From a virus, in IMG/VR virus record IMGVR_UViG_3300027896_000075, positions 1 through 44,967 of that record: a stretch of DNA of 44,967 nucleotides; one strand, given 5' to 3'. The position numbers were made by a program, and so were the translations under genes. Shown here piece after piece: positions 1,189 to 41,397 of the stretch. Within the stretch, counting starts at the first letter, position 1, and the number at the start of each line of letters is the position of its first letter. The notes beneath the pieces were generated by a model that searched no databases, had not been told where the DNA came from, and saw only the letters and a program-made list of their open reading frames with translations.

Positions 1189-3957
1189 ATGCCACAGACC
1201 TGCGAACCTTATCCGGGAATCATCGTCCAAACCACGTTTTCGCCTGTCGCGCTCGAAATTGACATCGTTCGGAGAGGCGGGAAGTTCAAGAACCGGGCGG
1301 GGAAGATGTGCGGAAACGGCCTCTACTACCACTTCAAAAAAGGCTGTTCCTTGATCTGGCCGGACATCGTGTGGCACCGCTGGAACGAGTTGGTGCTCAA
1401 GGAATGGCTGGAGCACAAGTACGTCGGCGTGATGGGCGCCGCGTCGTCCGGCAAGACGCACACGATGGCCTTTGCGCACCTGTTCGACTACTACTGCTTC
1501 CCCTACTCAACCACGACCATCGTCTGCTCCACGACCGAGCGCGACCTGGAGAATCGTATCTGGGGAGAAATGAAGCGCCTTCACCGGGATGCTACCAGCC
1601 GCTGGGACTATCTCCCCGGCCACTTGATCGAGGGCAAGCTGCGGATAGTCACCGATGACCGGAGCGAGGCCCAGGAGGGCCGTGACTTCAGGAACGGCGT
1701 TTGTTTCCCGTCGGGAACGCTAGTTGATACCGCCTCCGGTCCTCGATTGATCGAAACCATCCGTCGAGGAGATGCCGTGCTCTGCGCGTCAGGGATTGGC
1801 AGAGTTACTCAGACAATCAAACGCACTGCTCGGTCGCTCGTGCGAATTTCCACTAAAGATGGGAGAAGCATTTGTTGCACCCCGGAGCATCCATTTTTCA
1901 CTCAGTTCAGATGGAAAAAGGCTTGCGAGCTTAACGAGGGATGCTTTATGCTAAGCCCCTATGAAACGATGCGAATTCTGCGGCAGCCCACTGACTTATC
2001 AGAAGAGGTTTTGCAGTCTGTCCTGCAATGCGAAATGGATGCACAGCCAGCCGGACATTCAAGTTCACCGATTGAAGAAGCTGTCTATTGCGAGGCGCAA
2101 GTTTTTGAAATCTCACCCGGACTTTACGAGTCGAATTGCAGATCGGTTTCGGGGATACCGATGGTCATTGGCTGCCAGGCAAGCGCTTTCCAAAACTATG
2201 CGCGAGCGCGGAATCAGACCCACCGTGCGAGGCGGCAATGGGCATGGACCAACGAACCCAGAGAAAAAGCTATTGGAATTGCTCCCCGCTGGCCTTTGGA
2301 ATTACGGAATCAAAACCGGCAAATGGAACGGCAGTGGGTTCCCCGCGATTTACAAAGTGGACATCGGGCTGCCGGAATTGAAACTTGCAATCGAGGCGGA
2401 TGGATTCACTCACAACAATCCTGGCCGTCGAGCCAAGGATTTGAAGAAGGACGCATTCCTATCGGGGCTTGGGTGGAAAGTGTCACGATTCTCGAATCAC
2501 AGGATTTTGAACGATACGGAGGCCGTGATGGCAGAGTTGAAGTCTATAATCTCGAAGTTGAAGGGCACCCAAGCTACAGCGTAAACGGACTGCTCGCCCA
2601 CAACTGCGGAGTCCCTTGCAAAAAGGGAACTTCGTATGTCGGAATATCCGCTTTTGTAGGAATCAAGAACAAACGCCTTCGTATCTGCGCCGACGAGGCG
2701 TCACTTTTACCCAAGGCGTTTCTGGACTCGCTTTCCAATCTGATGAAGGGCGTTCCCGGCTACACTGACCGGAAAGCCTCTGGCATCGGCAACCCAGCCG
2801 ATACCTTGGATGCCCTCGGCTTGTTCTGCGAGCCCGCTGCGCACCTGGGGGGCTGGGATGGCGGCATTGACCAAACGCCCGTAACGAAGGTCTGGGAGAC
2901 GCGGATGCCCGATGGCGTGTGCGTCCAGCTTTGCGGGTCCGACTGCCCCAACATGGTCGCGCCCAAAGGAGCCGCGCCGCCTTACCCGTTCCTCATCACC
3001 CGGGACAATATGGAAGACGACGCCAAGGTCTGGGGAATAGATGACTGGCACTACAAGATGTTCGATGACGCGATGATGCCGCGCGGCCAGGGCAGCCGGC
3101 GCGTCATCACCCGCCAGCAGTGCCTCAAGTTCCACGCCTTGGATGAGCCGCTGTGGCTCAACGCCAACCGGACGCGCATCTGCTTCCTCGATGCGGCTTA
3201 TCGGGGCGTCGGGGGAGATCGCTGCGTGTTTGGCACCCTGGACTTTGGCGCTGAGTCCGTGGCCCCTGAACTACTGGGCGCGCACGTCGCCCAGTCCTTC
3301 ATCAACCAGACGCCGGACAAGGACAAGAACCGCATCATCCTCGCGCTGATTGACTTGGTGATAATCCCGATCGTACAGGGCACCGGCGAGCCCGCCGAGG
3401 ATCAAATCGTCGCCTTCGTACAAAGCGCCTGTGAGGAGAGGCACGTCCCGCAAACGCACTTCTACTATGACGCCGGTATGCGTACCTCGCTCGTCCAAGC
3501 CTTCGCGCGGCATAACTGGAACCAGTGCAACTCCATTGACTGCGGCGGCAAACCTACTGAGGACCAAGTAAGCGCCGACATTGACGTGTCCTGCCGGGAC
3601 TACTACTCGAAGTTCGTGACGCAGCTTTGGTTTGACGTGCGCTACATCATTGAGGCGAACCAGTTCCGGGGAATGACTCAGGACGTGATGCTCGAATTCT
3701 GCGCCCGCGAGTGGAAGCGCGTCGGCTCCAACAAGATCGAAGTCGAGTCCAAGGAAGAGTTGAAGAAGAAGACGGGCCGGTCACCGGACCTGGCCGATGC
3801 GCTGGCCATCGGCGTCTTTGGCGCCCGCCAAAAGGGTTTTGTTATCAAGCGGCTGGGCAACGCTCGCAAGGATAAGAACGACAATGCCTGGCAGAGAGAA
3901 CTGATCCGGCAGGCGCGCCTCATTTATCAATCAAGTCAGCTTGACCACGCCGTTTAA
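1189..3957 (+). CDS. terL: Terminase large subunit precursor interrupted by an intein
   Basis: The 922-codon frame encodes the DNA-packaging motor ATPase/nuclease, about 621 residues once the 301-residue intein is removed. The Walker A motif GAASSGKT is at residues 83-90. Walker B is RICADEA, with D502 and E503 in precursor numbering. The RNase H-like nuclease domain follows: FLDAAYRGVGGDRC near 665-680, YYDAGMRTS in the middle, and the last acidic motif GRSPDLADALA near 863. The intein lies between Walker A and Walker B, joining GV to CGVPCKKG, so packaging activity should need splicing. Upstream there is only a purine-rich stretch (AAGAGAAAAGCA) before the ATG. An HNH gene follows 123 bp downstream. 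No small terminase was identified in this window. Confidence 0.93.
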   Translation: MPQTCEPYPGIIVQTTFSPVALEIDIVRRGGKFKNRAGKMCGNGLYYHFKKGCSLIWPDIVWHRWNELVLKEWLEHKYVGVMGAASSGKTHTMAFAHLFDYYCFPYSTTTIVCSTTERDLENRIWGEMKRLHRDATSRWDYLPGHLIEGKLRIVTDDRSEAQEGRDFRNGVCFPSGTLVDTASGPRLIETIRRGDAVLCASGIGRVTQTIKRTARSLVRISTKDGRSICCTPEHPFFTQFRWKKACELNEGCFMLSPYETMRILRQPTDLSEEVLQSVLQCEMDAQPAGHSSSPIEEAVYCEAQVFEISPGLYESNCRSVSGIPMVIGCQASAFQNYARARNQTHRARRQWAWTNEPREKAIGIAPRWPLELRNQNRQMERQWVPRDLQSGHRAAGIETCNRGGWIHSQQSWPSSQGFEEGRIPIGAWVESVTILESQDFERYGGRDGRVEVYNLEVEGHPSYSVNGLLAHNCGVPCKKGTSYVGISAFVGIKNKRLRICADEASLLPKAFLDSLSNLMKGVPGYTDRKASGIGNPADTLDALGLFCEPAAHLGGWDGGIDQTPVTKVWETRMPDGVCVQLCGSDCPNMVAPKGAAPPYPFLITRDNMEDDAKVWGIDDWHYKMFDDAMMPRGQGSRRVITRQQCLKFHALDEPLWLNANRTRICFLDAAYRGVGGDRCVFGTLDFGAESVAPELLGAHVAQSFINQTPDKDKNRIILALIDLVIIPIVQGTGEPAEDQIVAFVQSACEERHVPQTHFYYDAGMRTSLVQAFARHNWNQCNSIDCGGKPTEDQVSADIDVSCRDYYSKFVTQLWFDVRYIIEANQFRGMTQDVMLEFCAREWKRVGSNKIEVESKEELKKKTGRSPDLADALAIGVFGARQKGFVIKRLGNARKDKNDNAWQRELIRQARLIYQSSQLDHAV
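1702..2604 (+). other. Intein in the terminase (C172 to N472 of the precursor)
   Basis: This is a protein-splicing element. The N-terminal block is CFPSGTLVDTASGPRLIETI, starting with the catalytic Cys172. Block B is TPEHPFF, with the conserved Thr and His. The C-terminal blocks are VYNLEVEGHPSYSVNGLLAHN, ending in Asn472, and the +1 extein residue is Cys473. All residues expected for a splicing-competent class 1 intein are present. Between the half-domains (about residues 258-420) the intein frame stays open but has no LAGLIDADG, HNH or other endonuclease motif. The same DNA carries an endonuclease gene in the +1 frame. The stretch looks poorer in GC than the flanking terminase, consistent with recent acquisition. 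Confidence 0.92.
1961..2584 (+). CDS. Vsr/EDxHD-like homing endonuclease nested out of frame in the intein
   Basis: This is a 207-residue protein in the +1 frame relative to the terminase/intein. It starts with a probable zinc finger (C4, C7, C18, C22), then a basic linker with NUMOD3-like helices (about 35-85). The PD-(D/E)XK/Vsr-like domain has PEKKLLELL (E101), YKVDIG (D134), KLAIEADGFTH (E145, D147, H151), an Asp-rich helix (D160, D164) and GWKVSRFSN (171-179). This pattern matches DUF559/Vsr-type and EDxHD homing enzymes. An in-frame TAA at 1952-1954 limits the start; ATG 1961 is the first candidate and has no good Shine-Dalgarno. The gene ends 20 nt before the intein's last Asn codon. 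It probably drives homing of the intein. Confidence 0.88.
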   Translation: MKRCEFCGSPLTYQKRFCSLSCNAKWMHSQPDIQVHRLKKLSIARRKFLKSHPDFTSRIADRFRGYRWSLAARQALSKTMRERGIRPTVRGGNGHGPTNPEKKLLELLPAGLWNYGIKTGKWNGSGFPAIYKVDIGLPELKLAIEADGFTHNNPGRRAKDLKKDAFLSGLGWKVSRFSNHRILNDTEAVMAELKSIISKLKGTQATA

Positions 3958-4564: not shown

Positions 4565-5968
4565 CTACACGGCGCCGCCTCCTAGCGCCGTTCTGAGGGC
4601 CTGGATCGCGTTGAAGAAAGCCAAGCTCTCAGCCGCAGTCAACCCGTTATGGATCGCCACGAAGGAAAGTCGTTTGCTCGTCCAAAGAAAAGGCGTGCCA
4701 TTATTGTTACCCGCCCAGACGTAGTATTGAGGCGTGGGCATAGCGCCCGGAGCGGCCGTGCCATGAACCAGCGAGGAGTGGGCGTTGCCTGAGTTGGCGA
4801 AATAGATGTCAAAGGAGCCGGACGAGATGCGGTTGCCCGAGACGTAGCCTGCCGCCGTAAGGGCATGGCTGATTTCAGACGGCGTGGTGTTGAAGCAATC
4901 GAAATAGATGACGCCGCTGTACAGATAGATCCCCACCTGATGGGCCGAGGCGTCCAGCGACAACAGTTCCACCGCCGCCTCGTTCACGTAGCTCGAATAG
5001 TAAACAGTGAATCCTGCACTCGCGGAGGTCACAAAGACATCGCCAGCCACTCCAGTTGTGGCGTACTTGGTGGTCCCGTTGCCCACCAGCCCGTTCACCG
5101 TCAAATCCCCGGAAACAAAGTTGTGGTTTCCCCAAGGGTCGGTTGACGACCCCACGATTAGAGGCGTTAAGGCCGCAGTCAAATTGTCGGGCACAATCGC
5201 GTTCATCGTCAGCATCTTTGTGTTCAGTCCCGAGTTGGTTAGAGAATGTAAAAAGATGGTCAGCGCAAGCTGCGTATTGGTGCTGGTTGAGGCCCCGCCA
5301 TTCGCTATCACGCGCGCATTCCAACTGGTCACCTGTGGTGAAATCTGGAAGACAATGGCCTGTAAACCGCCGTTGCTGAAGACCAGGCTGTTGAGCGTGC
5401 CGTCGGCAAAATACACGCTGAAGTTGGTGGTCAGGCCGGCGCCGCCCCCACCAGTGGAGTTGATGCTCAGAACGCCTGTGTTGGTCGTGAAGGTAACGCC
5501 GGTGCCCGGCGCGAATCCAATCAGCTTGGTGGCCGGGATGGTGAAATTATTCGTGGCATCATGCGCCGCTCCGGCTGGATCATAGAGAACGCCCCAAGGA
5601 AACCCGTTCGTCGCGTCATGGGCCTTTGTTGCCGCCAGTCCGGCGGCATCGTAAAGCACGCCCCAGGGAAACCCATTCGTGGCATTGTGGGCCGCGCCTG
5701 CGGGGTCGCTCAAGACCAGCCAGGGGAAGCCATTCGTGGCATCATGGGCTGCCCCCAAAGGGTCCCAGGGGCCACCACCGCCGCCTGCGCTGTTCAAAAT
5801 CACCCTGTTTGTGGCATAGGTAAAAAACATGTTCTGGCCAGGCACAAACCAGAACTCTTGAGACTGCTTCGCGTCCGGCTTCCTTTGAAGCTGAGAAAAC
5901 CAATACGACGGCTGTGCCTCAGCGACGAGCATGGAGAGCAGCAAGAGGATGGCCGCGACCTTCTTCAC
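4565..5968 (-). CDS. Tail-fibre/receptor-binding-like protein with signal peptide and repeats
   Basis: 467 residues, starting at GTG in a GTGA overlap with the upstream gene. The N-terminus (MKKVAAILLLLSMLVAEAQP) is a clear Sec signal peptide, unusual for a virion protein. Residues about 68-145 contain four near-copies of a unit like AHDATNGFPWGVLYD. The middle is Gly/Thr/Asn-rich beta structure (GVTFTTNTGVLSI). The C-terminus has the arrangement seen at the ends of many phage fibres: a laminin-G-like 'YVSGNRISSGSFDIYF', an aromatic 'YYVWAGNNNG' and a final helix 'LSFVAIHNGLTAAESLAFF'. Receptor recognition is inferred from this architecture. The signal peptide leaves open a surface-exposed or exported product. 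Confidence 0.7.
   Translation of the reverse strand: MKKVAAILLLLSMLVAEAQPSYWFSQLQRKPDAKQSQEFWFVPGQNMFFTYATNRVILNSAGGGGGPWDPLGAAHDATNGFPWLVLSDPAGAAHNATNGFPWGVLYDAAGLAATKAHDATNGFPWGVLYDPAGAAHDATNNFTIPATKLIGFAPGTGVTFTTNTGVLSINSTGGGGAGLTTNFSVYFADGTLNSLVFSNGGLQAIVFQISPQVTSWNARVIANGGASTSTNTQLALTIFLHSLTNSGLNTKMLTMNAIVPDNLTAALTPLIVGSSTDPWGNHNFVSGDLTVNGLVGNGTTKYATTGVAGDVFVTSASAGFTVYYSSYVNEAAVELLSLDASAHQVGIYLYSGVIYFDCFNTTPSEISHALTAAGYVSGNRISSGSFDIYFANSGNAHSSLVHGTAAPGAMPTPQYYVWAGNNNGTPFLWTSKRLSFVAIHNGLTAAESLAFFNAIQALRTALGGGAV
5549..5770 (-). repeat. Four imperfect tandem repeats within the fibre gene
   Basis: Four degenerate units encode AHDATNGFPW or close variants, each followed by V/L-rich turns and DPAG or DAAG. 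On the plus strand they appear as recurring TTCGT(G/C)GC(A/G)T blocks near 5551, 5606, 5671 and 5731. Spacing between units differs slightly and the third has an insertion (AATKA). Such repeats usually set shaft length in a fibre and can expand or contract. Confidence 0.75.
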
Positions 5969-6450
5969 GGGTAAATCTGCTTGAACAGCGGAGACTGCCA
6001 GAACTGGGCCGGGGCCACCTTCTTTGCCGGCCAGGCTGCGGCGAACGGGTAGAAATTACCCGCGTTGTAGAACAGGTCCGCCAGCATAGAGCAAAACTCG
6101 GACTTGTAGTTCGTTGTGTTGTTGCCCTGGTCTTTCGGCAGGTAAAAGTCGAACAGCCCACCGAGGTCGTACTTGTCGCCCTTAGCCTGTGCGTCGAACC
6201 ACTCCATTGCGGAGGTCAGATCAAAGGGCATCGTAGGCTCCAGCACGCCGCACACGTACTTGTCGTTGCGGATGGGGTACTCGTTGACGCCCTCCATGCG
6301 CGCCGCTACTGAGGTCGTGCGGCTCACGACAACCTCAATGTGCGAGGTCCACGACCAGGTTTTGATACTGATTATCACGCCAATCAGGTTCGACGGGCGG
6401 TACAAAACACACCGACCCGGCGTGAGGAGGGACTGGTCAACAACCGGCAT
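5965..6450 (-). CDS. Permuted NlpC/P60 (YiiX-like) cysteine peptidase/amidase
   Basis: This 161-residue protein has the order of a circularly permuted papain-fold enzyme. An N-terminal strand region (PGRCVLYRPSNLIGVIISI) precedes the candidate catalytic His in WTSHIEVVV. The candidate nucleophile follows in YKSEFCSMLADLFYNAG, with His before Cys as in the YiiX/YaeF group. A peptidoglycan- or amide-cleaving role is likely, placing it in the lysis or tail-lysin set. Its stop overlaps the GTG start of the fibre gene. The start codon is ATG at 6450, three bases after the lipoprotein stop. Confidence 0.7.
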   Translation of the reverse strand: MPVVDQSLLTPGRCVLYRPSNLIGVIISIKTWSWTSHIEVVVSRTTSVAARMEGVNEYPIRNDKYVCGVLEPTMPFDLTSAMEWFDAQAKGDKYDLGGLFDFYLPKDQGNNTTNYKSEFCSMLADLFYNAGNFYPFAAAWPAKKVAPAQFWQSPLFKQIYP

Positions 6451-9572: not shown

Positions 9573-11087
9573 CTACTGATCCGTCGAGCCCGGAGGCACC
9601 GGCGTCGGAGGCTGCGGCACGGGGCCGTCCTCAGTGCCGGTCGGGACTCCCGTCCCGTAAAGCGCGGTGAACGCCGTCGGGATCGGGCACGGCGGCAGCG
9701 TGCTGTCGTAATTCTGGGCCGGGTAACCCGGATCAGGCGAGCACGGGCTGATCTCCGGGATGCAGAACTGCTCACGCCGGTGGAAGATGGCTTCCATGAA
9801 TTCGTAGTGGAGCGGGCGGACGTAGTACTTGAACCACGCAATGAACTGGCCCTTGTTCTCCCACTTGTTGGCGATGACCTGGCCGGCCTGGTCGGCCCCG
9901 AGGTCGTGCATGGCGAACCGCCACTTGCCACCAAAGTCCCGATGCCCAAACGGCATCTCGGGGTTGAGCGGCTTGGCGTCGGGCACCAGAAGCTCCATCC
10001 CCTTCTTGTGATGGATCTGGCTGATCGAGAACTGCGCGGTCTCGTAGTCGGGATTCTCGTCGCTGCCGAGGCCCGCCGCGCCGCCTGCCCCAGTGGTGAT
10101 GCTGTTCTTGTATGGCAGCACGATCTGGTAACGATAGCGGTTGGGAGCCGCCGTCGCACCCAGGTCCGTGACGTAGTTGAAGCGCAACCCCATCGGGTCC
10201 ACCCGGACCATGAAGTTGCCAATCTGGCCGCTGAAGCCGTAACGCCAATACTTGGTGCTCTCGTCGAAGTTCTGGAAACGCCAGTTGCCCAACACATTCG
10301 GGCTGTCGCCGCCGCCGATGCCTTGCTGGCCGCCCAGGTGCTCAAGCTCCCAGGTCGTGTCCATGTCGGACACCAGTTCGATGAACGGGCTGGTTTCCTT
10401 GAACGGATTCTCGCCGGCATAGCCTTTGAGCATCAAGGGGTTAAAACGGTGCTGGAGCATCTGCGGCGCGAGCTTGAACACGCGCGACGGCGGGACCGAG
10501 CAGTCGAAGTAAATCTCTTCGTCGCCCAGGACGCCGCCCAGCGTCCAGGTGTACGTGAACACACCATCGGTGCCGGGCGTGGCGAAATTCCGGTTGGCCA
10601 CGCTCTTAACCTTCGCCCAGAACAGGTGCCGCTTCCTTAGGAAATTCGAGGAGACCGCGCTGGTAGCCGGACGCAGGATCTTGCTGATGATCTGGTCAAT
10701 GTGCTCCATCGCATGCGTAATGTGCATGTCTTGGTCGTAGCACAAGAGGGGGGTGCCCCAGGTCTGCTGTTCCGCGTAGTAGGTCAGCCGGTCAGCGCCC
10801 CAACTGATCTGATGTTCGTGAGGATCGCACGGGTTGCCCTGGCAGCCCGGACCATTCGCGTTGACCTTCGTCCACGTCTTGGTCGTGTTGGGCCACACCG
10901 AGCGGAATCGGTCTTGGGTGATTTCAACCGGCGTCCCCATCGGGGTCGTGCCGGTCGAGACGTTGAGGAGCCAGCCGTCGGTTGCCCTTATGTCTTCCAT
11001 GATCATTTCGTCAAACCGCGGGGTTTGATCAACAAAAAAGTTGGGAAAGTCGCAGGCCGCAATAATTTGCGAGGTTGGACAGGACAC
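9573..11087 (-). CDS. Major capsid protein
   Basis: 504 residues from GTG 11087, preceded by the A/G-rich leader GAAGAAAGAAAAAAACT. It directly follows, in transcription order, the scaffold-like gene and a capsid-adjacent HNH gene. The protein has the length and mixed alpha/beta composition of a phage coat protein, with a spine-helix-like segment (HITHAMEHIDQIISKIL) and abundant aromatic beta segments in the middle. It ends in a long Pro/Thr tail (PPTPVPPGSTDQ). No peptidase domain is fused. The call rests mainly on position, length and the scaffold-capsid order; I cannot confirm the fold by search. Confidence 0.75.
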   Translation of the reverse strand: MSCPTSQIIAACDFPNFFVDQTPRFDEMIMEDIRATDGWLLNVSTGTTPMGTPVEITQDRFRSVWPNTTKTWTKVNANGPGCQGNPCDPHEHQISWGADRLTYYAEQQTWGTPLLCYDQDMHITHAMEHIDQIISKILRPATSAVSSNFLRKRHLFWAKVKSVANRNFATPGTDGVFTYTWTLGGVLGDEEIYFDCSVPPSRVFKLAPQMLQHRFNPLMLKGYAGENPFKETSPFIELVSDMDTTWELEHLGGQQGIGGGDSPNVLGNWRFQNFDESTKYWRYGFSGQIGNFMVRVDPMGLRFNYVTDLGATAAPNRYRYQIVLPYKNSITTGAGGAAGLGSDENPDYETAQFSISQIHHKKGMELLVPDAKPLNPEMPFGHRDFGGKWRFAMHDLGADQAGQVIANKWENKGQFIAWFKYYVRPLHYEFMEAIFHRREQFCIPEISPCSPDPGYPAQNYDSTLPPCPIPTAFTALYGTGVPTGTEDGPVPQPPTPVPPGSTDQ

Positions 11088-16353: not shown

Positions 16354-16550
16354 AAGCGCCATTCCAACAGATGTTGATACTTGGTGAATTCCCTGCGGGT
16401 AAAAGGTCCCCCAAAGGCCAAGTCTGGTCTCTGACCACCTGGAAGGTCTGGATTTAGAAATCGGAAGTTCACTTTACCGCCCAGGTGTTTGAAAGCTTCG
16501 GTCTTGTCTCGTAACGCTGCTTGCGGGATGGTCTTGATCGTGATGTTCAC
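16350..16550 (-). CDS. Small protein, 66 residues
   Basis: Starts MNITIKTIPQAALRDKTEAF in an ATGA overlap with the portal stop and ends in an ATGA overlap with the next gene. Contains a Gly/Pro-rich turn (NPDLPGGQRPDLAFGG). No family recognised; coupling supports it. Confidence 0.6.
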   Translation of the reverse strand: MNITIKTIPQAALRDKTEAFKHLGGKVNFRFLNPDLPGGQRPDLAFGGPFTRREFTKYQHLLEWRL

Positions 16551-18850
16551 TCCTTCATGCTTGTGAGCCTGTTCCTGCGGATGTTTCCGACGGCTTCCAG
16601 GTCGAGCTTCTGCAACTCGGCAGCGTGCTTTTCACGGTCCTGCTTGAGCCCTTCCTCGAAAGCAATCTGCCGCTGGGCTGTCTTGGCCGCGTGACTCTGC
16701 TGGCCCATTTGGATCTTGCTCTGCGCTTGGGCCTGAGTCGCCTGGATCTTCGCGGCGTCCTTCGGGTCGAGCCCGCCCTTGCCATTGCCCTGCTGCGCTT
16801 GCTTCTGCGCCGCCTGCTGCTGCCGCTGCATGTAGCCTTTGACCTTATTGGCAATACCCCCCAATTCGCCAGCAAACATCCGCACCATGTTCACGGAGCC
16901 TTTGTCGGCTTCCAGCATCGCTAGAAACGCCTTCGTATAGACTTCGCAGTGGTTCAAGCCGATCACGTCCTGCGGGGTGCCTACAGCGCCGGTCTGGTCA
17001 ATGTCAATGACCTTCGCCTGCATCAACCGGAGCATGGTCGCCAGCACTTCCACCGGGTTGAGCCCGGGCTTGGGCGTAACTGCGGTGCCGCCCATGAGAG
17101 TGCCAAAGGCAAACTCGGTGTCGTGGACTGAATCGCTGATGTGCGGCGCATCGGGCACCAGGTCCACCGCCTCGGCCGGGTCGTCGTTGAAGGCGAACAC
17201 CGCCTTGCGCAACACCTTTGATTGGCTCTCGGGCGGCATCAACGGGCGCCATTCCATCAACTGCTGGGCAATCGTCATCTCGCGGGTCTTGTCTCCACCG
17301 CCCATGACGCGCTCGTGTTCCACTTCCCAGGCGTCCGGGTTGAAAACCAATTCCTCGGGGATGCCCTGGCGGATGCAGTTGGCCTGCACGCGCTGCACCG
17401 CCGCGTCGGTCGAGAACTTGATACAGAAGCGCCGGGAAATCTCCGCGTCCTCGAAAGTCTGGTAGTGGTACGCCTGCTCCATCGCCGCCCCGATCATCGC
17501 GCTGGCCGCGTTCAACTCGGCCATCACCTGGAAGCGGGTCTTCTCGGTGCGGTCTTTCGAGTAGTCGGTCTTTTGCGAGAAGAGGCCCGTGGAATCGTCC
17601 ACCAGCCGGCCATTCTCCTGGAGGCCAAGCTCTACCAGATTAGAATTGACCTGGAAACGGTCGGCAGCCGGCACGGCCTTGACCGTCTTGTCAATGAAAC
17701 CGCGGTTGATGAGGTTCACCTTGAGCGCCCGCTGCACGTCCTCCGGGCTGTCGCCGTAGAAGTACATGTTCATCGCCTCGGCTACGGCTTCGTTGAACCG
17801 GCAGCGCAGGCGGTTCTGCCAGAGGCACACCGCCCACAGTAGAAATCCCAGGCTCCGCACCGAATGATACCGCTGCGGGAAGACCGAGGACAGGTCCGCG
17901 AACGTGAAGCTGGCCAAGTTCTTCCAACTGGTCGCCACCTTGCGTTCGCCGCTGGTGAACAGGAAATCGTCCTTGCTGCTCTTGTCAATGTTCCGGCTCT
18001 TCCGGCTCACCTGATACTGACCGCCAACCAGCGAGGGATTCTCCCAGGAATCGAGGATGATCCGCCGCACCCAACCGCTCTCGCCCTTGCTCTCGGTGTA
18101 GCCGTAAATGTCGAAACAGTCCACCGTCGGCACGCGGTCCCCGACGTAGGAACCGCCGTCCTCTTTAAACCGCTCCACGATCTTCTCCGGAGCGTAAACG
18201 TCCGGCCAGTTCTGGGAGCGCAACTGCGTGGTCTGTTCGTCCAGCCATTCCATGCAGCGGTTCACGAAGGGCCGGTTCCACCCATCGTCTTCGCTACCTT
18301 CTCGTGTGAGCTTCTGCAATTCGATCCCCGTGAACTCCCGCCGGAAGAAGATAAACGGCAGGTTCTCGAAGCCAAGGAACGTATGCGAGGGCACCAGCAC
18401 GTCCTCCAGCCCGATAGGCCGCGGGCACCACCAATCCTCTTTCTCCCAGACGCCCGGGCCGATGCCATGCAGCACGAGGTTCCCGATCTTCGCCCGCATG
18501 TGCTCGTAATACTTGATTGAGCCCTTCATCACTTTGGCTATCTCGCGCGTGCGGATGGCCCCATACTCGCTCCGCTTGTGCTGCGCGCCGCCGTCCGTCC
18601 GGCAGATGAAGTAGTTGCCGGTCTTGAGCAGGCCGTTGGCCATTTGCGTGCGGGCGTCGTGGAGCCGGCGGGTCATGGTCAGGTCCGCAAAATTGCAGTC
18701 GATCTGGCTCTCTTCGACCTGCTTCTGGGAGAAAGGCGGCTCGCCGTTGGCGAGGGCGGAAATCTTCGCCCGGTTGGATGACCGCGGGCTTTCTGTCAGC
18801 AGCGAGTCGTATGCGATTGCGTCGAGGAGCCTAGCGTCATTCCAGTTCAT
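16547..18850 (-). CDS. Portal protein (head-tail connector)
   Basis: 767 residues, in the size range of P22-like portals. The pattern is that of a portal: an N-terminal helical region (MTRRLHDARTQMANGLLK), a central alpha/beta clip-wing part and a long Gln-rich helical C-terminus (MQRQQQAAQKQAQQGNGKGG). It ends with charged coiled coil (EEGLKQDREKHAAELQKLDL), as in barrel-forming portals. It lies upstream of scaffold and capsid genes in transcription order. A sigma70-like promoter inside the end of the preceding HNH-like gene would give an almost leaderless message. Identity rests on length, composition and gene order. Confidence 0.75.
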   Translation of the reverse strand: MNWNDARLLDAIAYDSLLTESPRSSNRAKISALANGEPPFSQKQVEESQIDCNFADLTMTRRLHDARTQMANGLLKTGNYFICRTDGGAQHKRSEYGAIRTREIAKVMKGSIKYYEHMRAKIGNLVLHGIGPGVWEKEDWWCPRPIGLEDVLVPSHTFLGFENLPFIFFRREFTGIELQKLTREGSEDDGWNRPFVNRCMEWLDEQTTQLRSQNWPDVYAPEKIVERFKEDGGSYVGDRVPTVDCFDIYGYTESKGESGWVRRIILDSWENPSLVGGQYQVSRKSRNIDKSSKDDFLFTSGERKVATSWKNLASFTFADLSSVFPQRYHSVRSLGFLLWAVCLWQNRLRCRFNEAVAEAMNMYFYGDSPEDVQRALKVNLINRGFIDKTVKAVPAADRFQVNSNLVELGLQENGRLVDDSTGLFSQKTDYSKDRTEKTRFQVMAELNAASAMIGAAMEQAYHYQTFEDAEISRRFCIKFSTDAAVQRVQANCIRQGIPEELVFNPDAWEVEHERVMGGGDKTREMTIAQQLMEWRPLMPPESQSKVLRKAVFAFNDDPAEAVDLVPDAPHISDSVHDTEFAFGTLMGGTAVTPKPGLNPVEVLATMLRLMQAKVIDIDQTGAVGTPQDVIGLNHCEVYTKAFLAMLEADKGSVNMVRMFAGELGGIANKVKGYMQRQQQAAQKQAQQGNGKGGLDPKDAAKIQATQAQAQSKIQMGQQSHAAKTAQRQIAFEEGLKQDREKHAAELQKLDLEAVGNIRRNRLTSMKE

Positions 18851-18851
18851 G

Positions 18852-19493
18852 CTACCTGCTATATGTCCGTTGCACTGGTTTTGTCAACGCCTGTTCGTCG
18901 CTCCAACCGAGCAGCATCCTGTTTCTAAGGGTCATGGGCTTCATGCCGATCAATCCGGCCCAGACGCTGAGTTGCGCCCGTAGTCCACAGAAATTGAGGA
19001 TCACGTTACTGCGCCGATTCAGGGCCTGTTGCTGCGCTGTGGCCCAAGTGCAGTTCTCTTTGCAGTAGTGGCCGTTGTTGTCTTTACGCTCGATCTGAAG
19101 GCCGGGCTGATAGCTCGGCTCCATGTCGCGCTTGAAGTCTTCGTAGCACGCCCAGAGAATCTTGATGCCCCTGCCTCCCCAGTCTTCGTAATGGGGTGAG
19201 TTGGGGTTTTCACACCGCTGCTTCATTGCCCTCCAGACCCCATAAAAGTGTCCAACTTCGTGGTTCTTCAAGTCCCCGTGCGTCGTGTGCGCTCGCGCTG
19301 TTGCTTCCAGCTTCCAGCACCCGCAAGACTTCGTGTGGCCGGTCAGGACGTTGCTGCGCTGCGCAACAGTGCGCTTGCCGCACTCGCACTCAAACTCCCA
19401 AAGGGGCACGCGCTTGCCGTAAGGCAGCCATCGCCACTTCACGAACCTGACCGCCGTGAGCCTATTGAATTTCTGGCCGGTGATGTCCTTCAT
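18852..19493 (-). CDS. HNH-like homing endonuclease beside the portal gene
   Basis: 213 residues. The N-terminus has a zinc-binding region (FECECGKRTVAQ, SCGCW). The middle carries the family signature: GVWRAMKQRCENPNSPHYED, then WGGRGIKI, then QIERKDNNGHYCKENCTW with ATAQQQALNRR. This corresponds to the common phage nuclease pattern 'W..M..RC..P....Y...GGRGI...IDR.dN.G.Y...NCRWAT..eQ..N'. The C-terminal helix-turn-helix (SVWAGLIGMKPMTLRNRM) would bind DNA. It ends one base before the portal start without interrupting it. Confidence 0.85.
   Translation of the reverse strand: MKDITGQKFNRLTAVRFVKWRWLPYGKRVPLWEFECECGKRTVAQRSNVLTGHTKSCGCWKLEATARAHTTHGDLKNHEVGHFYGVWRAMKQRCENPNSPHYEDWGGRGIKILWACYEDFKRDMEPSYQPGLQIERKDNNGHYCKENCTWATAQQQALNRRSNVILNFCGLRAQLSVWAGLIGMKPMTLRNRMLLGWSDEQALTKPVQRTYSR
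18859..18888 (-). promoter_or_regulatory. Candidate promoter for portal operon (near-leaderless)
   Basis: On the minus strand: -35 TTGACA (18888-18883), an 18-bp spacer and -10 TATAGC (18864-18859). The portal ATG begins 8 nt after the -10, so the message would carry a leader of only about 2 nt. The promoter lies inside the coding end of the HNH-like gene. Confidence 0.45.
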
Positions 19494-19529
19494 TTTGCTT
19501 TACGCCCGTTGGGCGTGGGTGTCAACGCT

Positions 19530-19793
19530 TTACGGCACGTGCGGCATCGTGTAGCCGGTATCCGCCAGTGTTCGCATGTCGTCGGCGTACATGTAGGCGC
19601 GGTCCTCGGGCGGCTCTTCGTCCTCTGAGCAAACATGCCACGTCCGTTTGCAAAAACGGCAGGAGAAGTGACTGCCTTGGTTGTAGTAGCCGTCCTCTCC
19701 ACAGTTCGGGCACGAGAGGATAGCGATGTCGTCGGGCGGTCGGCTTTTCAACGCGGCTTTCACTTGTGGGTCTTTCCAAATATCTTTGCTCAT
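19530..19793 (-). CDS. Zinc-ribbon protein, 87 residues
   Basis: Starts MSKDIWKDPQVKAAL. The zinc ribbon is CPNCGEDGYYNQGSHFSCRFC (two CxxC knuckles, about 28-48), followed by an acidic segment. Co-directional with the late genes. Function unknown; ribbon proteins of this size often bind nucleic acid. Confidence 0.7.
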   Translation of the reverse strand: MSKDIWKDPQVKAALKSRPPDDIAILSCPNCGEDGYYNQGSHFSCRFCKRTWHVCSEDEEPPEDRAYMYADDMRTLADTGYTMPHVP

Positions 19794-19796
19794 AAT

Positions 19797-20027
19797 TCAA
19801 TCCTTCTCCCTCTGCCGGGCCTTCCGCTCCAGCTTGCTTCGGGACTCCTTCCTCAACTCAGCCTGCCTATCGGCGTCCCGCTGCGCGTCGAACTTCGTCG
19901 GCCCGCCGTCGGCCTTCCAGCGCAGGTATTCCTCCAAGAACGCAAGCTCGGCGGCTTCCTCCGGTCGCTTGATGAACTTCAACTCGGCGGCGCGCTTCTC
20001 GATGGGGCTGTCGCGATACTCGGTCAT
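19797..20027 (-). CDS. Charged helical protein, 76 residues
   Basis: I take ATG 20027 (MTEYRDSPIEKRAAELKF) because it follows the upstream stop by only 4 nt. The protein is Lys/Arg/Glu-rich and almost wholly helical (RKESRSKLERKARQREKD). Function unknown. Confidence 0.6.
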   Translation of the reverse strand: MTEYRDSPIEKRAAELKFIKRPEEAAELAFLEEYLRWKADGGPTKFDAQRDADRQAELRKESRSKLERKARQREKD

Positions 20028-20031
20028 CACT

Positions 20032-20259
20032 TCAGCTTTGGTCTTTTGACTTCGGGCTAATACCACTGTTCGGAAGTTGTGAGAGCATCCACCTTGCCCC
20101 CTCTTGGAATGCGTAGGCAGTGGGAACATTGCCTTGCTCGTCGCGGAACTTTCGTGCGGCATCGGCTATCTGGTAGTCGTTTGGTCGGCCCAGAGATTCC
20201 GAACCAATCGCTGGAGCACAACGGCCACCAGCCTCGCAGTTATCGGTTGTCTCACTCAT
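20032..20259 (-). CDS. Unknown small protein, 75 residues
   Basis: The later part (YQIADAARKFRDEQGNVPTA, then FQEGARWMLSQL) is a compact helical pair seen in many small phage proteins. The start is ATG 20259. It ends 4 nt before the next start. Function unknown. Confidence 0.6.
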   Translation of the reverse strand: MSETTDNCEAGGRCAPAIGSESLGRPNDYQIADAARKFRDEQGNVPTAYAFQEGARWMLSQLPNSGISPKSKDQS

Positions 20260-20271
20260 TTTCGTTTCCTT

Positions 20272-20526
20272 TCAGGTCGTCGGGTGGCCGTGGCTCAGCT
20301 TGTCGTTGGGCAAGATGGACTCAGCCCATTCTGTGAGTGTAGCGCGGGTAATCGGCCCTCGGTTTGGATCACTGAGGTATATGTGTGCGAAGCGCCCGGT
20401 TGGGGGACGGAACTCCAGCCAGTATCCATCGCAGTCGCGGCAGAGTTTCAGGCCGCACTTGCCCAACAAATCGGTGCAGGCAACAGCCGCCGGGCGTTTC
20501 CGTTTCCTGGCTTTGTTGGTCTTCAT
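20272..20526 (-). CDS. Unknown small protein, 84 residues
   Basis: Basic N-terminus (MKTNKARKRKRPAAVACTD), then CGLKLCRDCDG, a possible metal site, and a beta segment (YWLEFRPPTGRFAHIYLSD). ATG 20526. Function unknown. Confidence 0.6.
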   Translation of the reverse strand: MKTNKARKRKRPAAVACTDLLGKCGLKLCRDCDGYWLEFRPPTGRFAHIYLSDPNRGPITRATLTEWAESILPNDKLSHGHPTT

Positions 20527-20544
20527 ACGTTCTTTCTGTCGGGC

Positions 20545-20643
20545 TCAGTCGCTCTCAGCGGCTGTGCCTGACCTCTGGCGTTCCTGCAGCGCCTTCAGCG
20601 CCACTTCCCCGGCCTGCCGCGACGCGTCGGTGGTGAAGGTCAT
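20545..20643 (-). CDS. 32-residue coupled mini-gene
   Basis: ATG 20643 overlaps the upstream TGA (ATGA). The product begins MTFTTDASRQAGEVALKALQ and is helical. The tight coupling matches the rest of the operon. Confidence 0.4.
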   Translation of the reverse strand: MTFTTDASRQAGEVALKALQERQRSGTAAESD

Positions 20644-21065
20644 ACCGGCATCTCCTGCTGGGATTGGCTCTGCCGCCAGTCCTTATACATCCGCCAAAGC
20701 CTTCCTACGATTGGCCCCCAGTCCTGCGGTCGGGCCAGTAGCGCATCCACGATGCCTTCATCCCAAAGCATCCCGTCGTTGCGGTTCCACTTGGCGACCA
20801 TCTTGGCATATTCCTTGGTCAAAAATTCGAGGTTGCTCCGGGCCTTGTCCGGCACCGGCACCCGGGCCGACTTTAGCAACTGGATGGCGTAGCACTGGGC
20901 CTTCAACCGTTCCTCCAGATTGCGCTTGCTCACGCGCACGTCAGCACAGTGATTACAAGAGGAGAGCGGAATCAGCTTGTGAGGGTCCGCAATCACGTCG
21001 TAGGAGTCGTCAATCTCCAGGGTTATGGGCTTGTGGCAGAATTTGCAGGTAGTCGAGAAGTTCAT
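20640..21065 (-). CDS. Zinc-containing protein, 141 residues
   Basis: ATG 21065 overlaps the upstream stop (ATGA), so I reject a long N-terminal extension. MNFSTTCKFCHKPITLEI and LIPLSSCNHCADVRV give two CxxC pairs about 26 residues apart, a plausible zinc site. The rest is helical and charged, ending in a Gln/Ser-rich tail. Position in an operon with a replication-like motif protein hints at DNA work, but there is no firm family. Confidence 0.6.
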   Translation of the reverse strand: MNFSTTCKFCHKPITLEIDDSYDVIADPHKLIPLSSCNHCADVRVSKRNLEERLKAQCYAIQLLKSARVPVPDKARSNLEFLTKEYAKMVAKWNRNDGMLWDEGIVDALLARPQDWGPIVGRLWRMYKDWRQSQSQQEMPV

Positions 21066-21511
21066 TGGGGTGAGTGGAAATTGTTGATCTGCCTCACGGC
21101 ATCGTCCGCGATGGTCCGGTAGCTGCCGCCAACCGGCTGGCGCACACCGGAGCCGGGGCCGGTTCGTTCTTGCCAGTTGCTCCGCCAGTGGATCATCGCT
21201 GCGTGCCAGGACTTCATGCCGTTCCTTCCGACTTTCCAGCCATTGGCTTCGTAATACGAGTGAAACTTGATGCACTCGTTTTGAGGCAACCCAATTTTGG
21301 CCCCGTTCAAGAGCACGGCATCAAGGCAGGGAGGCTCGAATTTGCCATTGGACTTGGTGCGACTGGAAACTGGTTTTGAAAGGAGCTTTTGGGCTTCTCC
21401 AAGGAGCGTATTGATTTTGTCAATGCTACCAAGGGGAGTTCCCAATTCATTGATGGCAGACTCGATTAGATACGAGGCGCGAGCCGACGGACTTTCAGAT
21501 TCTTCATTCAT
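21062..21511 (-). CDS. Replisome-organiser-like C-terminal domain protein, 149 residues
   Basis: I choose ATG 21511 because GAGAGAGAAATT just upstream is a good ribosome-binding site. The C-terminal half reads ECIKFHSYYEANGWKVGRNG followed by MKSWHAAMIHWRSNW. This 'F..Y...nGWkVG...MK.W.aA...W' signature is common at the ends of phage replication-initiation/DnaT-like proteins. The N-terminal half is a charged helix. It may be a detached replication-accessory domain. An RNA-like element and promoter lie 225-330 bp upstream. Confidence 0.6.
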   Translation of the reverse strand: MNEESESPSARASYLIESAINELGTPLGSIDKINTLLGEAQKLLSKPVSSRTKSNGKFEPPCLDAVLLNGAKIGLPQNECIKFHSYYEANGWKVGRNGMKSWHAAMIHWRSNWQERTGPGSGVRQPVGGSYRTIADDAVRQINNFHSPQ

Positions 21512-21735
21512 AATTTCTCTCTCTACTCTCTGCATATCCCCCCAACCCCCCAACGGAAGCAAGCTCGAAGGGGACATCATAAAATGATGAGTGAGGGTCA
21601 CCCCTGGCGAGTATTTCGTAAAGCGCCCCGGCCATTGCTTCGATCCCATGACAGGCGCACCGCAGCCCTTGATTTTGATACGGTCCAAGGGAATACAACC
21701 GCCCGCTCGGCTCGAAACCGAATCACGGGGAGTAC
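21512..21735 (-). other. Untranslated stretch downstream of the small RNA
   Basis: About 220 bp between the candidate small RNA and the 149-residue gene. The frame is open on the minus strand, but its predicted peptide looks like chance coding and has no start with a ribosome-binding site. If transcription reads through the small RNA's terminator this would be a long 5' leader. No further element is seen. Confidence 0.4.
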
Positions 21736-21803
21736 AAAAAGACGGCCGGTGTTGCTGGAATCTTGAGAGCAAGAGACCCGGAACCTTTCGGCTCCCACCG
21801 GCC
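21736..21803 (-). ncRNA. Candidate 68-nt structured small RNA or attenuator
   Basis: On the minus strand a three-way junction can be drawn. P1 pairs GGCCGGTG (21803-21796) with CACCGGCC (21751-21744). P2 is GGAGCC/GGTTCC closed by a GAAA tetraloop (21795-21780) and stacks directly on P1. P3 is TTGCT/AGCAA (21772-21768 with 21756-21752) and adjoins the P1 3' strand. An alternative P3 is TCTTG/CAAGA. P1 is followed by GTC and five T (21740-21736), as in an intrinsic terminator. P2 needs a G-U pair that exists only in the minus-strand RNA, supporting the orientation. The predicted transcription start falls on the first P1 base. No known RNA family is recognised. Confidence 0.5.
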
Positions 21804-21809
21804 CAAGCA

Positions 21810-21838
21810 AATCTAATGTTTTGTCTCTCATAGGTCAA
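21810..21838 (-). promoter_or_regulatory. Sigma70-like promoter for the small RNA
   Basis: -35 TTGACC (21838-21833), 17-bp spacer, -10 TAGATT (21815-21810). Transcription would begin near 21803, which is the first base of stem P1. It could also serve the operon that begins at 21511. Confidence 0.5.
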
Positions 21839-21927
21839 GTCAGCAAGACTTGATGCCGTCAATTTCTCAGAAGTCGGTCAGGCCGTCAACCCCCTTTTTG
21901 AAAAAGTTGTCCCCAAGTTATTCACAA
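21839..21927. other. Gap downstream of the fibronectin-III gene
   Basis: Holds the 3' flank of the Fn3 gene and the region upstream of the small-RNA promoter. A short CTTTT/AAAAG inverted repeat near 21900 is too weak to call a terminator. Nothing else is seen. Confidence 0.35.
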
Positions 21928-22374
21928 TCACGGCCCCAGGCGGATGCGCAGGTTGGTGGGCGGTGGAGGCGGCACCGGGATGTTGGTGAAGACCTCCGTC
22001 GAGAAGTCGCTCTCCAGACCATTCACGTCCGTGGCGGTCCCGGCGAAGTAGTAGGTGGGACCGCGCACCAGGTTGGTCACCGCGACGGTCAGGGCTGGTC
22101 CGGGGCTGACCGAGTTGGTGTACGTGCGTGAGGCTACGCCCCAATAGACGTGGTAGGAGGCGATGACGTTGGTTCCGGGGCTGGGGTCCCAAGCCACGGT
22201 TACCGATCCAGTGACAGGCGGCGCCGCGTTCGCCAGCGCGCAGAACAAAAGCAACCCGCCAACCGCGGCCCACACGCGCGTTCTCCGCAGGGGGCTATGA
22301 TATAACGAGCAGCCTCTACTGCCCGGCGCTGTCCTCGCTCCAAATCCACAAAAAGCCTGACGGGTTGTATTCAT
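21928..22374 (-). CDS. Secreted fibronectin type III domain protein
   Basis: 148 residues from ATG 22374. A hydrophobic segment VWAAVGGLLLFCALANAAPP acts as signal peptide; an internal GTG just before it could be the true start. One Fn3 domain follows: VTVAWDPSPGTNVIASYHVY, then TVAVTNLVRGPTYYFAGTAT and VNGLESDFSTEV, with the usual Trp, Tyr and Leu core. It ends in a proline stretch. Fn3 domains on phage or surface proteins usually bind carbohydrate or other surfaces weakly. The gene stands between the glycosyltransferase group and the small-RNA locus. Confidence 0.7.
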   Translation of the reverse strand: MNTTRQAFCGFGARTAPGSRGCSLYHSPLRRTRVWAAVGGLLLFCALANAAPPVTGSVTVAWDPSPGTNVIASYHVYWGVASRTYTNSVSPGPALTVAVTNLVRGPTYYFAGTATDVNGLESDFSTEVFTNIPVPPPPPTNLRIRLGP

Positions 22375-25095: not shown

Positions 25096-25812
25096 TCACC
25101 GCTTCAGCACTTTTTCCTCTGCCAACACCCAGCATTTGGGGTCGAGACCTCTGCGGGTGTCAGCGGTCATGTGCTTGAGTTTGAACTGAAGCGGTGTTTG
25201 AACCAGAAGGGGCAGCGGACAAAGGCATATAGTGCAAACCCCAAGTTTTGCGTCTTGAGTCGTCACCAGCTTACGAGTGCCGAGCTTTTCAATCTGGCGC
25301 TTGATGGCCTCGCTTGCAGGAACTGTGAACCAGGTTTCCAGACCGCCCTTGCCGTTGAGCGGGCACGTGGCACAGACCGCGGCTCGCGCTTCTGCCTGCG
25401 CTGGTGGCACTGCTGGCATTCCAGAGTCGAGCCAGTCATCGGTTGATTTCAAACCGGCCCACAGTTTTTTAACCACCCCCACAACAGCGGCTAGCTTTTG
25501 CTGGTACTGCTGCTGTTGTGGGGGCGACATTTTTGGGGGCGGGGCGGCCGCTCCTTCTTCGGCCACATAATCAGTCCAACCCATGCGCAGACAAACCTCA
25601 GCGTTAAATTCGTCAATGCGGTCGGTCATCGCCTGATCCGACAAATCCCAGCCCAGCTTTTTGGCAATCTGCGGATTGCCGCGTAGCGCGGCTTGGGCTT
25701 GTTGCACCAGCGAGTCCAGCGAGGACTGCGGTCGGGGCGTCCATTTCAAGTTTGGGATGTAAAAGACCAGTCCGTTGGGTATGGACATCTGCCTGTTTTT
25801 GAGTCTGCTCAT
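25096..25812 (-). CDS. Cys-cluster protein, 238 residues
   Basis: Start ATG 25812 in an ATGA overlap. The C-terminal half has a Cys cluster (VCATCPLNG, then VCTICLCPL and DPKCW), probably a zinc site. The middle has a poly-Gln helix (PPQQQQYQQKLAAVVGVVKK). Such 'WC..C' proteins occur in many phage accessory regions without known function. Confidence 0.6.
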   Translation of the reverse strand: MSRLKNRQMSIPNGLVFYIPNLKWTPRPQSSLDSLVQQAQAALRGNPQIAKKLGWDLSDQAMTDRIDEFNAEVCLRMGWTDYVAEEGAAAPPPKMSPPQQQQYQQKLAAVVGVVKKLWAGLKSTDDWLDSGMPAVPPAQAEARAAVCATCPLNGKGGLETWFTVPASEAIKRQIEKLGTRKLVTTQDAKLGVCTICLCPLPLLVQTPLQFKLKHMTADTRRGLDPKCWVLAEEKVLKR

Positions 25813-26090
25813 GTCTTTACTTGTGCCGGATTTGTGGCACTCGTCAATAAGGATGCGCGTTTGGCTCGTTCGTTGAAGATCCTCACCAACCGCTTCGCCG
25901 CCATTGATTTGGAGCGGTACTTGTGGCCACACCTACGACAACGGCAGATAGCCCAGTCTCCGCGAACACCAATGACTTCAACGTCCAAGTAGTTCCGAAT
26001 GTAATCCCGGTCATAGTGGCCCGGTCGGGCTGCGTCCTGGCGCTTGCAGACCGAGCAAAAAAGGAAACAGACGGGAGTAGATGCGCTCAT
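25809..26090 (-). CDS. Zinc-ribbon protein, 93 residues
   Basis: ATG 26090 overlaps the upstream stop. CFLFCSVCKRQDAARPG and AICRCRRCGHKYRSKS form two knuckles of a zinc ribbon about 40 residues apart; the basic tail would suit nucleic-acid binding. Function unknown. Confidence 0.65.
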   Translation of the reverse strand: MSASTPVCFLFCSVCKRQDAARPGHYDRDYIRNYLDVEVIGVRGDWAICRCRRCGHKYRSKSMAAKRLVRIFNERAKRASLLTSATNPAQVKT

Positions 26091-37044: not shown

Positions 37045-37085
37045 CGCCCTTCCTTCACAGTCAGGAGTGACTTGTACTCGTTCAG

Positions 37086-37153
37086 GCGGTCCGCTGGGCC
37101 GCTTGACCGAGAGCGCCGGGAATAACCTCGGCGCTTATGAGAAAGGTCAGAAT
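37086..37153 (+). promoter_or_regulatory. Two hairpins before the 74-residue gene
   Basis: GCGGTCC/GGGCCGC (37086-37092 with 37096-37102, one G-U pair, 3-nt loop) and AGCGCCG/CGGCGCT (37112-37118 with 37129-37135), then GAGAAAGGTCAGAAT to the ATG at 37154. Same leader style as its neighbours. Confidence 0.5.
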
Positions 37154-40914: not shown

Positions 40915-41168
40915 ACCTATGCTCCAGTGGTCACGAAGAAATCTGCTTTGAGGAGCGGGAGTGTCCTTTTTGCGCCTCGATAGCTAAGAAGGATGAGACC
41001 ATCAAAGACTTGGAAGAGGAGCGAGAAGCGCTAGAGAGCGCCATAGTAGAAGCCAATGCTCGCATCGCAGAGCTTCAGGAAGAGCCTCTAATCACTCAGG
41101 CAGAGAACGCGCTCAGAGCCGTTGCTAAGGCAAATCATGGACCGCTTCTCCTATCAACGTCTGTGTGA
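40911..41168 (+). CDS. Zinc/coiled-coil protein, 85 residues
   Basis: MNLCSSGHEEICFEERECPF begins at ATG 40911 (ATGA). A C/H metal site is followed by a long coiled coil (IKDLEEEREALESAIVEANA). Function unknown. Confidence 0.55.
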   Translation: MNLCSSGHEEICFEERECPFCASIAKKDETIKDLEEEREALESAIVEANARIAELQEEPLITQAENALRAVAKANHGPLLLSTSV

Positions 41169-41397
41169 GTCGCGGCCGGGGTTGTCATTACCGCCCTGGC
41201 ACCGGCTCACGCGGACTGACCGGCATCGCGCCAAGCGGTTCACTCAGGATGAGCTTATCACAAAGCGCGTGGCGGTGCTGCTCGCCCGCACCAACGGCAC
41301 AGATCGGCTTCAACCTATGAAATCAATCAGCAAACTCACTCGCTGGAGTAAGGGCCTTAGGAATGGTCCCTACAACGGCGTGTGCGCTCCTATATGA
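41137..41397 (+). CDS. Unknown basic protein, 86 residues
   Basis: Starts MDRFSYQRLCESRPGLSLPP, overlapping the previous gene by 32 bp. Rich in Arg (RLTRTDRHRAKRFTQDELIT). Its TGA overlaps the ATG of the next frame (ATGA), which favours a real gene. Function unknown. Confidence 0.4.
   Translation: MDRFSYQRLCESRPGLSLPPWHRLTRTDRHRAKRFTQDELITKRVAVLLARTNGTDRLQPMKSISKLTRWSKGLRNGPYNGVCAPI

Follow-up and report, generated by a model that had tools for sequence, protein, structure and literature searches.

We analysed a linear virus record from IMG/VR, 44,967 bases long (the window). The candidate RNA lies within a 416-bp gap of this record, from 21512 to 21927, which is bordered by minus-strand genes on both sides; the features of the region are collected in Table 1. 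The product of the first gene downstream resembles phage DUF4373-type and helix-turn-helix proteins in their C-terminal part. With the 767-aa gene of the window (16547-18850) as query, 18 related loci were recovered. A 504-aa gene at 9573-11087, which had no family match, was 78-79% identical in the two nearest relatives, and this conservation suggests that it is probably the major capsid gene. The sole relative found among reference genomes was a contig of a Pedosphaera MAG, so that the host is probably a verrucomicrobium. Homologues of genes 25096 and 24457, and in one relative also of 23235, are located close upstream of the 767-aa gene in the nearest relatives. Most of the genes from 18852 to 22374, which surround the RNA, were not found in these relatives, and the RNA therefore probably belongs to an accessory cassette. 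Elsewhere in the window, the large terminase gene (1189-3957, plus strand, 922 aa) carries an apparent intein, with a Hint/intein splicing domain within residues 171-472, and a minus-strand gene at 5965-6450 has a product that resembles enoyl-CoA hydratase/carnitine racemase-like phage proteins.

Table 1. Features of the gap and of the adjoining transcription units
Feature	Position	Strand	Basis or remark
Upstream transcription unit: methyltransferase, glycosyltransferase and fn3-protein genes	24401-21928	-	same strand as next operon
Perfect 7+7 dyad TCAAGTC-N5-GACTTGA, putative operator	21835..21853	-	overlaps -35 box
-35 box TTGACC	21833..21838	-	promoter pattern scan
-10 box TAGATT, 17-nt spacer from -35	21810..21815	-	promoter pattern scan
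Predicted 68-nt RNA, three-way junction	21736..21803	-	MFE folding, shuffles
P1 5' arm GGCCGGUG, begins at predicted +1	21796..21803	-	
P2 hairpin GGAGCC-GAAA-GGUUCC, one G-U pair	21780..21795	-	
P3 hairpin, CUCU loop; UCUUG/CAAGA and two basal pairs	21757..21778	-	
P1 3' arm CACCGGCC	21744..21751	-	
U-rich tail GTCTTTTT, putative terminator tract	21736..21743	-	directly after P1 3' arm
Remaining leader up to first gene	21512..21735	-	z -0.12, structure not above chance
First gene downstream of RNA, 149 aa	21062..21511	-	similarity search

The original prediction held that nothing protein-coding explains the gap. This was nearly right, except that the prediction was silent on the frame of the downstream gene, which is open across the gap up to a TTG at 21862. 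GC content by codon position was flat in this extension (0.50/0.55/0.56), as compared with 0.60/0.40/0.83 in the 767-aa gene. Neither homologues nor a protein family were found for the extension; where relatives of the downstream protein are longer, they aligned only with that protein's own C-terminal part and not with the extension. Plus-strand ORFs in the gap also had no family match. With no codon signal, no homologues and longer homologues that do not match, a coding role was rejected, and judging from these sequence properties we regard the gap as noncoding. A single DnaA-box-like TTATTCACA (21918-21926) sits within GTTGTCCCCAAGTTATTCACAATC at the edge of the gap; a replication origin at this position was considered and rejected, because the turn in GC skew is near 31-32 kb.

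As predicted, a minus-strand promoter sequence of the form TTGACC-17-TAGATT is present at 21838-21810. No other 9/12 match occurred within 2.5 kb, for which chance predicts 0.7; taken alone, the promoter hexamers are at chance level. A 6-nt discriminator lies between the -10 box and the predicted start at 21803, which, in agreement with the original prediction, is the first base of the closing stem. The scan gave no further match between this candidate promoter and the downstream gene. We also observed that the dyad TCAAGTCttgctGACTTGA, the only perfect match in the dyad search, spans positions -50 to -32. Perfect repeats of its size number 20 in the window, and a given 21-bp zone has a probability of about 0.013 of being touched by one. 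This evidence is post hoc, yet it is independent of the RNA fold.

The minimum free energy (MFE) fold of the 68-mer is exactly the three-way junction that had been described, with 2 hairpins, one of them closed by a GAAA loop, inside an 8-bp stem whose arms (21744-21751 and 21796-21803) are 100% complementary and which runs straight into GTCTTTTT at 21743-21736. Its MFE was -33.3 kcal/mol (z -4.09, or about -4.1 to -4.2), with 1 of 200 shuffles as good. In contrast, the plus strand of the same 68 bases gave -25.8 (z -1.89, about -2) and did not form P2, because the G-U pair becomes A.C; thus, the assignment of P2 to the minus-strand RNA only was upheld. Only about 3 of 1200 random windows of the record reached z <= -4, and the folding signal is limited to these 68 bases and to the minus strand. 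In the ensemble of the 363-nt leader transcript, P1 formed with a probability of about 0.69.

Two aspects of the original prediction fared less well. It had proposed 2 mutually exclusive P3 pairings, as in a switch, but in the next suboptimal folds, at -32.8, only the register of the basal P3 pairs shifts; the UUGC/GCAA alternative, at -29.3, is about 4 kcal/mol weaker than the MFE fold, and these energies do not support a switch. It had also offered the element as either a small RNA or an attenuator: a self-contained unit of promoter, 68-nt RNA and terminator is consistent with our findings, whereas no antiterminator was identified for the leader, as attenuation would call for.

The promoter, the start position, the stem and the U-tract thus line up, and it must be considered whether they do so by accident. 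The conjunction scored was a promoter followed 4-10 nt later by the start of a stem no shorter than 8 bp, together with a U-tract. This was seen once in the window, against a shuffled-window mean of 0.067 (arms <=140 nt apart) or 0.14 (<=200 nt). The conjunction occurs in 7-13% of shuffled windows, and the case from promoter, stem and U-tract is for that reason only suggestive. No other RNA of the same design was found in the window, the remaining promoter matches having stems of only 6-7 bp. Possibly, the fold and the promoter match both arose by chance in an unremarkable intergenic remnant. The arrangement was selected post hoc, with 0.07-0.14 expected per window, and folds as good or better occur elsewhere in the window (at 25464 and 41153, for example); against this, several independent features meet in one noncoding gap, and we consider such an accident improbable.

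A serious rival is an ordinary intercistronic terminator, which would end the upstream unit and isolate the next operon, the promoter being fortuitous and no discrete small RNA being made. The stem and U-tract would be enough for a terminator, the position between 2 gene groups on the same strand is suitable, and the promoter match is, as stated above, at chance level. Yet the stem begins exactly at the predicted +1, a dyad is present on the -35 box, and the 2 internal hairpins would be superfluous for a terminator; on balance, this explanation appears to us rather doubtful.

Searches for relatives of the RNA gave no match to any family in Rfam at gathering score, and one unrelated match (E 3.9), away from the RNA, at permissive settings. 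Among 15 records of related phages, 293 genomes from the putative host order, and the phage and plasmid sets, no homologue was detected. It should be noted that the covariance model used was built from a single sequence and is insensitive; distant relatives may have escaped it. Its best match among the related phages had an E value of 0.04, in one record, and its best among the 293 genomes (the order of the Pedosphaera MAG) had 0.002 per genome, which is at chance; the alignments had no consistent core in common. DNA similarity searches likewise detected no relative, whether among phages, among plasmids or in 288 genomes from the putative host phylum. Exact and degenerate patterns retrieved 2 sequences from IMG/VR that share P1 and the U-tract; these were rejected, since their interiors are unrelated and inspection of the 60 nt upstream by eye showed no promoter resembling that of the candidate. 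A P1-only pattern run on 387 genomes of the putative host phylum returned noise, a control pattern matching at a broadly similar rate.

The explanation that we favour, although tentatively, is that a regulated promoter gives transcripts most of which end once a folded leader RNA of 68 nt has been made, and that read-through feeds the operon from 21511. A sigma-70-type minus-strand promoter would start transcription at 21803, probably controlled by a protein that binds the dyad overlapping the -35 box. Most transcripts would adopt the three-way junction and end at the U-tract, leaving a stable 68-nt RNA, and a minority would read through the 224-nt leader into the first gene. The promoter, the fold and the tail are features of the sequence; promoter use, the dyad-binding protein, termination, read-through and any action in trans we infer. 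In addition to the alignment of elements noted above, we count in favour the perfect dyad covering the -35 box, the noncoding codon-position composition, a fold whose stability greatly exceeds that of shuffles, but only for the minus strand and between these end points, the formation of P1 in the leader ensemble, and the lack of a second promoter match before the downstream gene. Counted against it are the chance-level promoter score, the frequency of the combined architecture in shuffled windows (only about 0.07-0.13 per window), the absence of a homologue and hence of covariation, and the 44-nt branched loop, which is unusual for an intrinsic terminator. A bolder form of this proposal, which we think hardly likely, would have a phage-specific leader RNA outside described families, with the whole three-way junction in the role of terminator hairpin; the junction, controlled by a repressor bound to the dyad, would set how far the accessory cassette is expressed.

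The RNA could instead be free-standing and act in trans on phage or host mRNAs, unconnected to the downstream operon, as a promoter and terminator of its own might suggest. Among start codons in the window, the P3 segment paired best with that of the gene starting at 20526, which ranked first of 55 at -22.7 kcal/mol. The target scores are weak, however, and with no related copy found, no conserved seed is visible; we give such a role little credence. The first gene's ribosome-binding site was rejected as a target of P3, the pairing being no better than chance (22-28% of shuffles).

The favoured reading, a regulated promoter with early termination, has counterparts among known RNAs. In the Gifsy-1 prophage, the phage small RNA IsrK arises from termination just downstream of an operon promoter, its read-through transcripts are the operon mRNA, and its action on that mRNA has been demonstrated (PMC4825925). 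The candidate would be analogous in promoter-proximal termination and read-through into an operon, and we claim no sequence homology; in contrast to IsrK, it is known from sequence features alone. UpsM of Rhodobacter sphaeroides, which derives from an intrinsic terminator inside a 268 nt 5' operon leader with about 1% read-through (PMC5089854), would likewise be analogous as a small RNA from a terminator in an operon leader, but UpsM is chromosomal, Hfq-dependent and conserved in a bacterial family (PMC5089854), whereas the candidate is a phage orphan. Lambda OOP RNA and P22 sar RNA are short phage RNAs that influence gene expression, and each is antisense to a coding gene (PMC12197685). The candidate differs from these in being sense to its neighbours and in a noncoding gap; the strand opposite it offers only ORFs with no family match, and codon-position GC is flat. 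What the locus does have in common with IsrK and UpsM, as features of sequence, is a promoter upstream of a predicted intrinsic terminator in an operon leader, and the candidate is probably a small leader RNA of this familiar kind, although an orphan. Phages of Verrucomicrobiota have hardly been studied, and a limited literature search found no small RNA from one. If transcribed, the candidate would be a compact leader small RNA tied to an accessory gene cassette; as a single sequence with no relatives, its general importance is small.

Three other structured places in the window may be recorded. On the plus strand, a very strong hairpin of 14 plus 8 bp, with no U-tract, lies near a gene end at 41159-41216 (MFE -56.5 and z -6.4 for 41140-41240), and 2 strong hairpins stand side by side at 37076-37136 (z -5.1). 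A long inverted repeat at 25477-25525 (z -5.3 to -7.3) is near where the minus-strand gene 25096-25932 probably starts.
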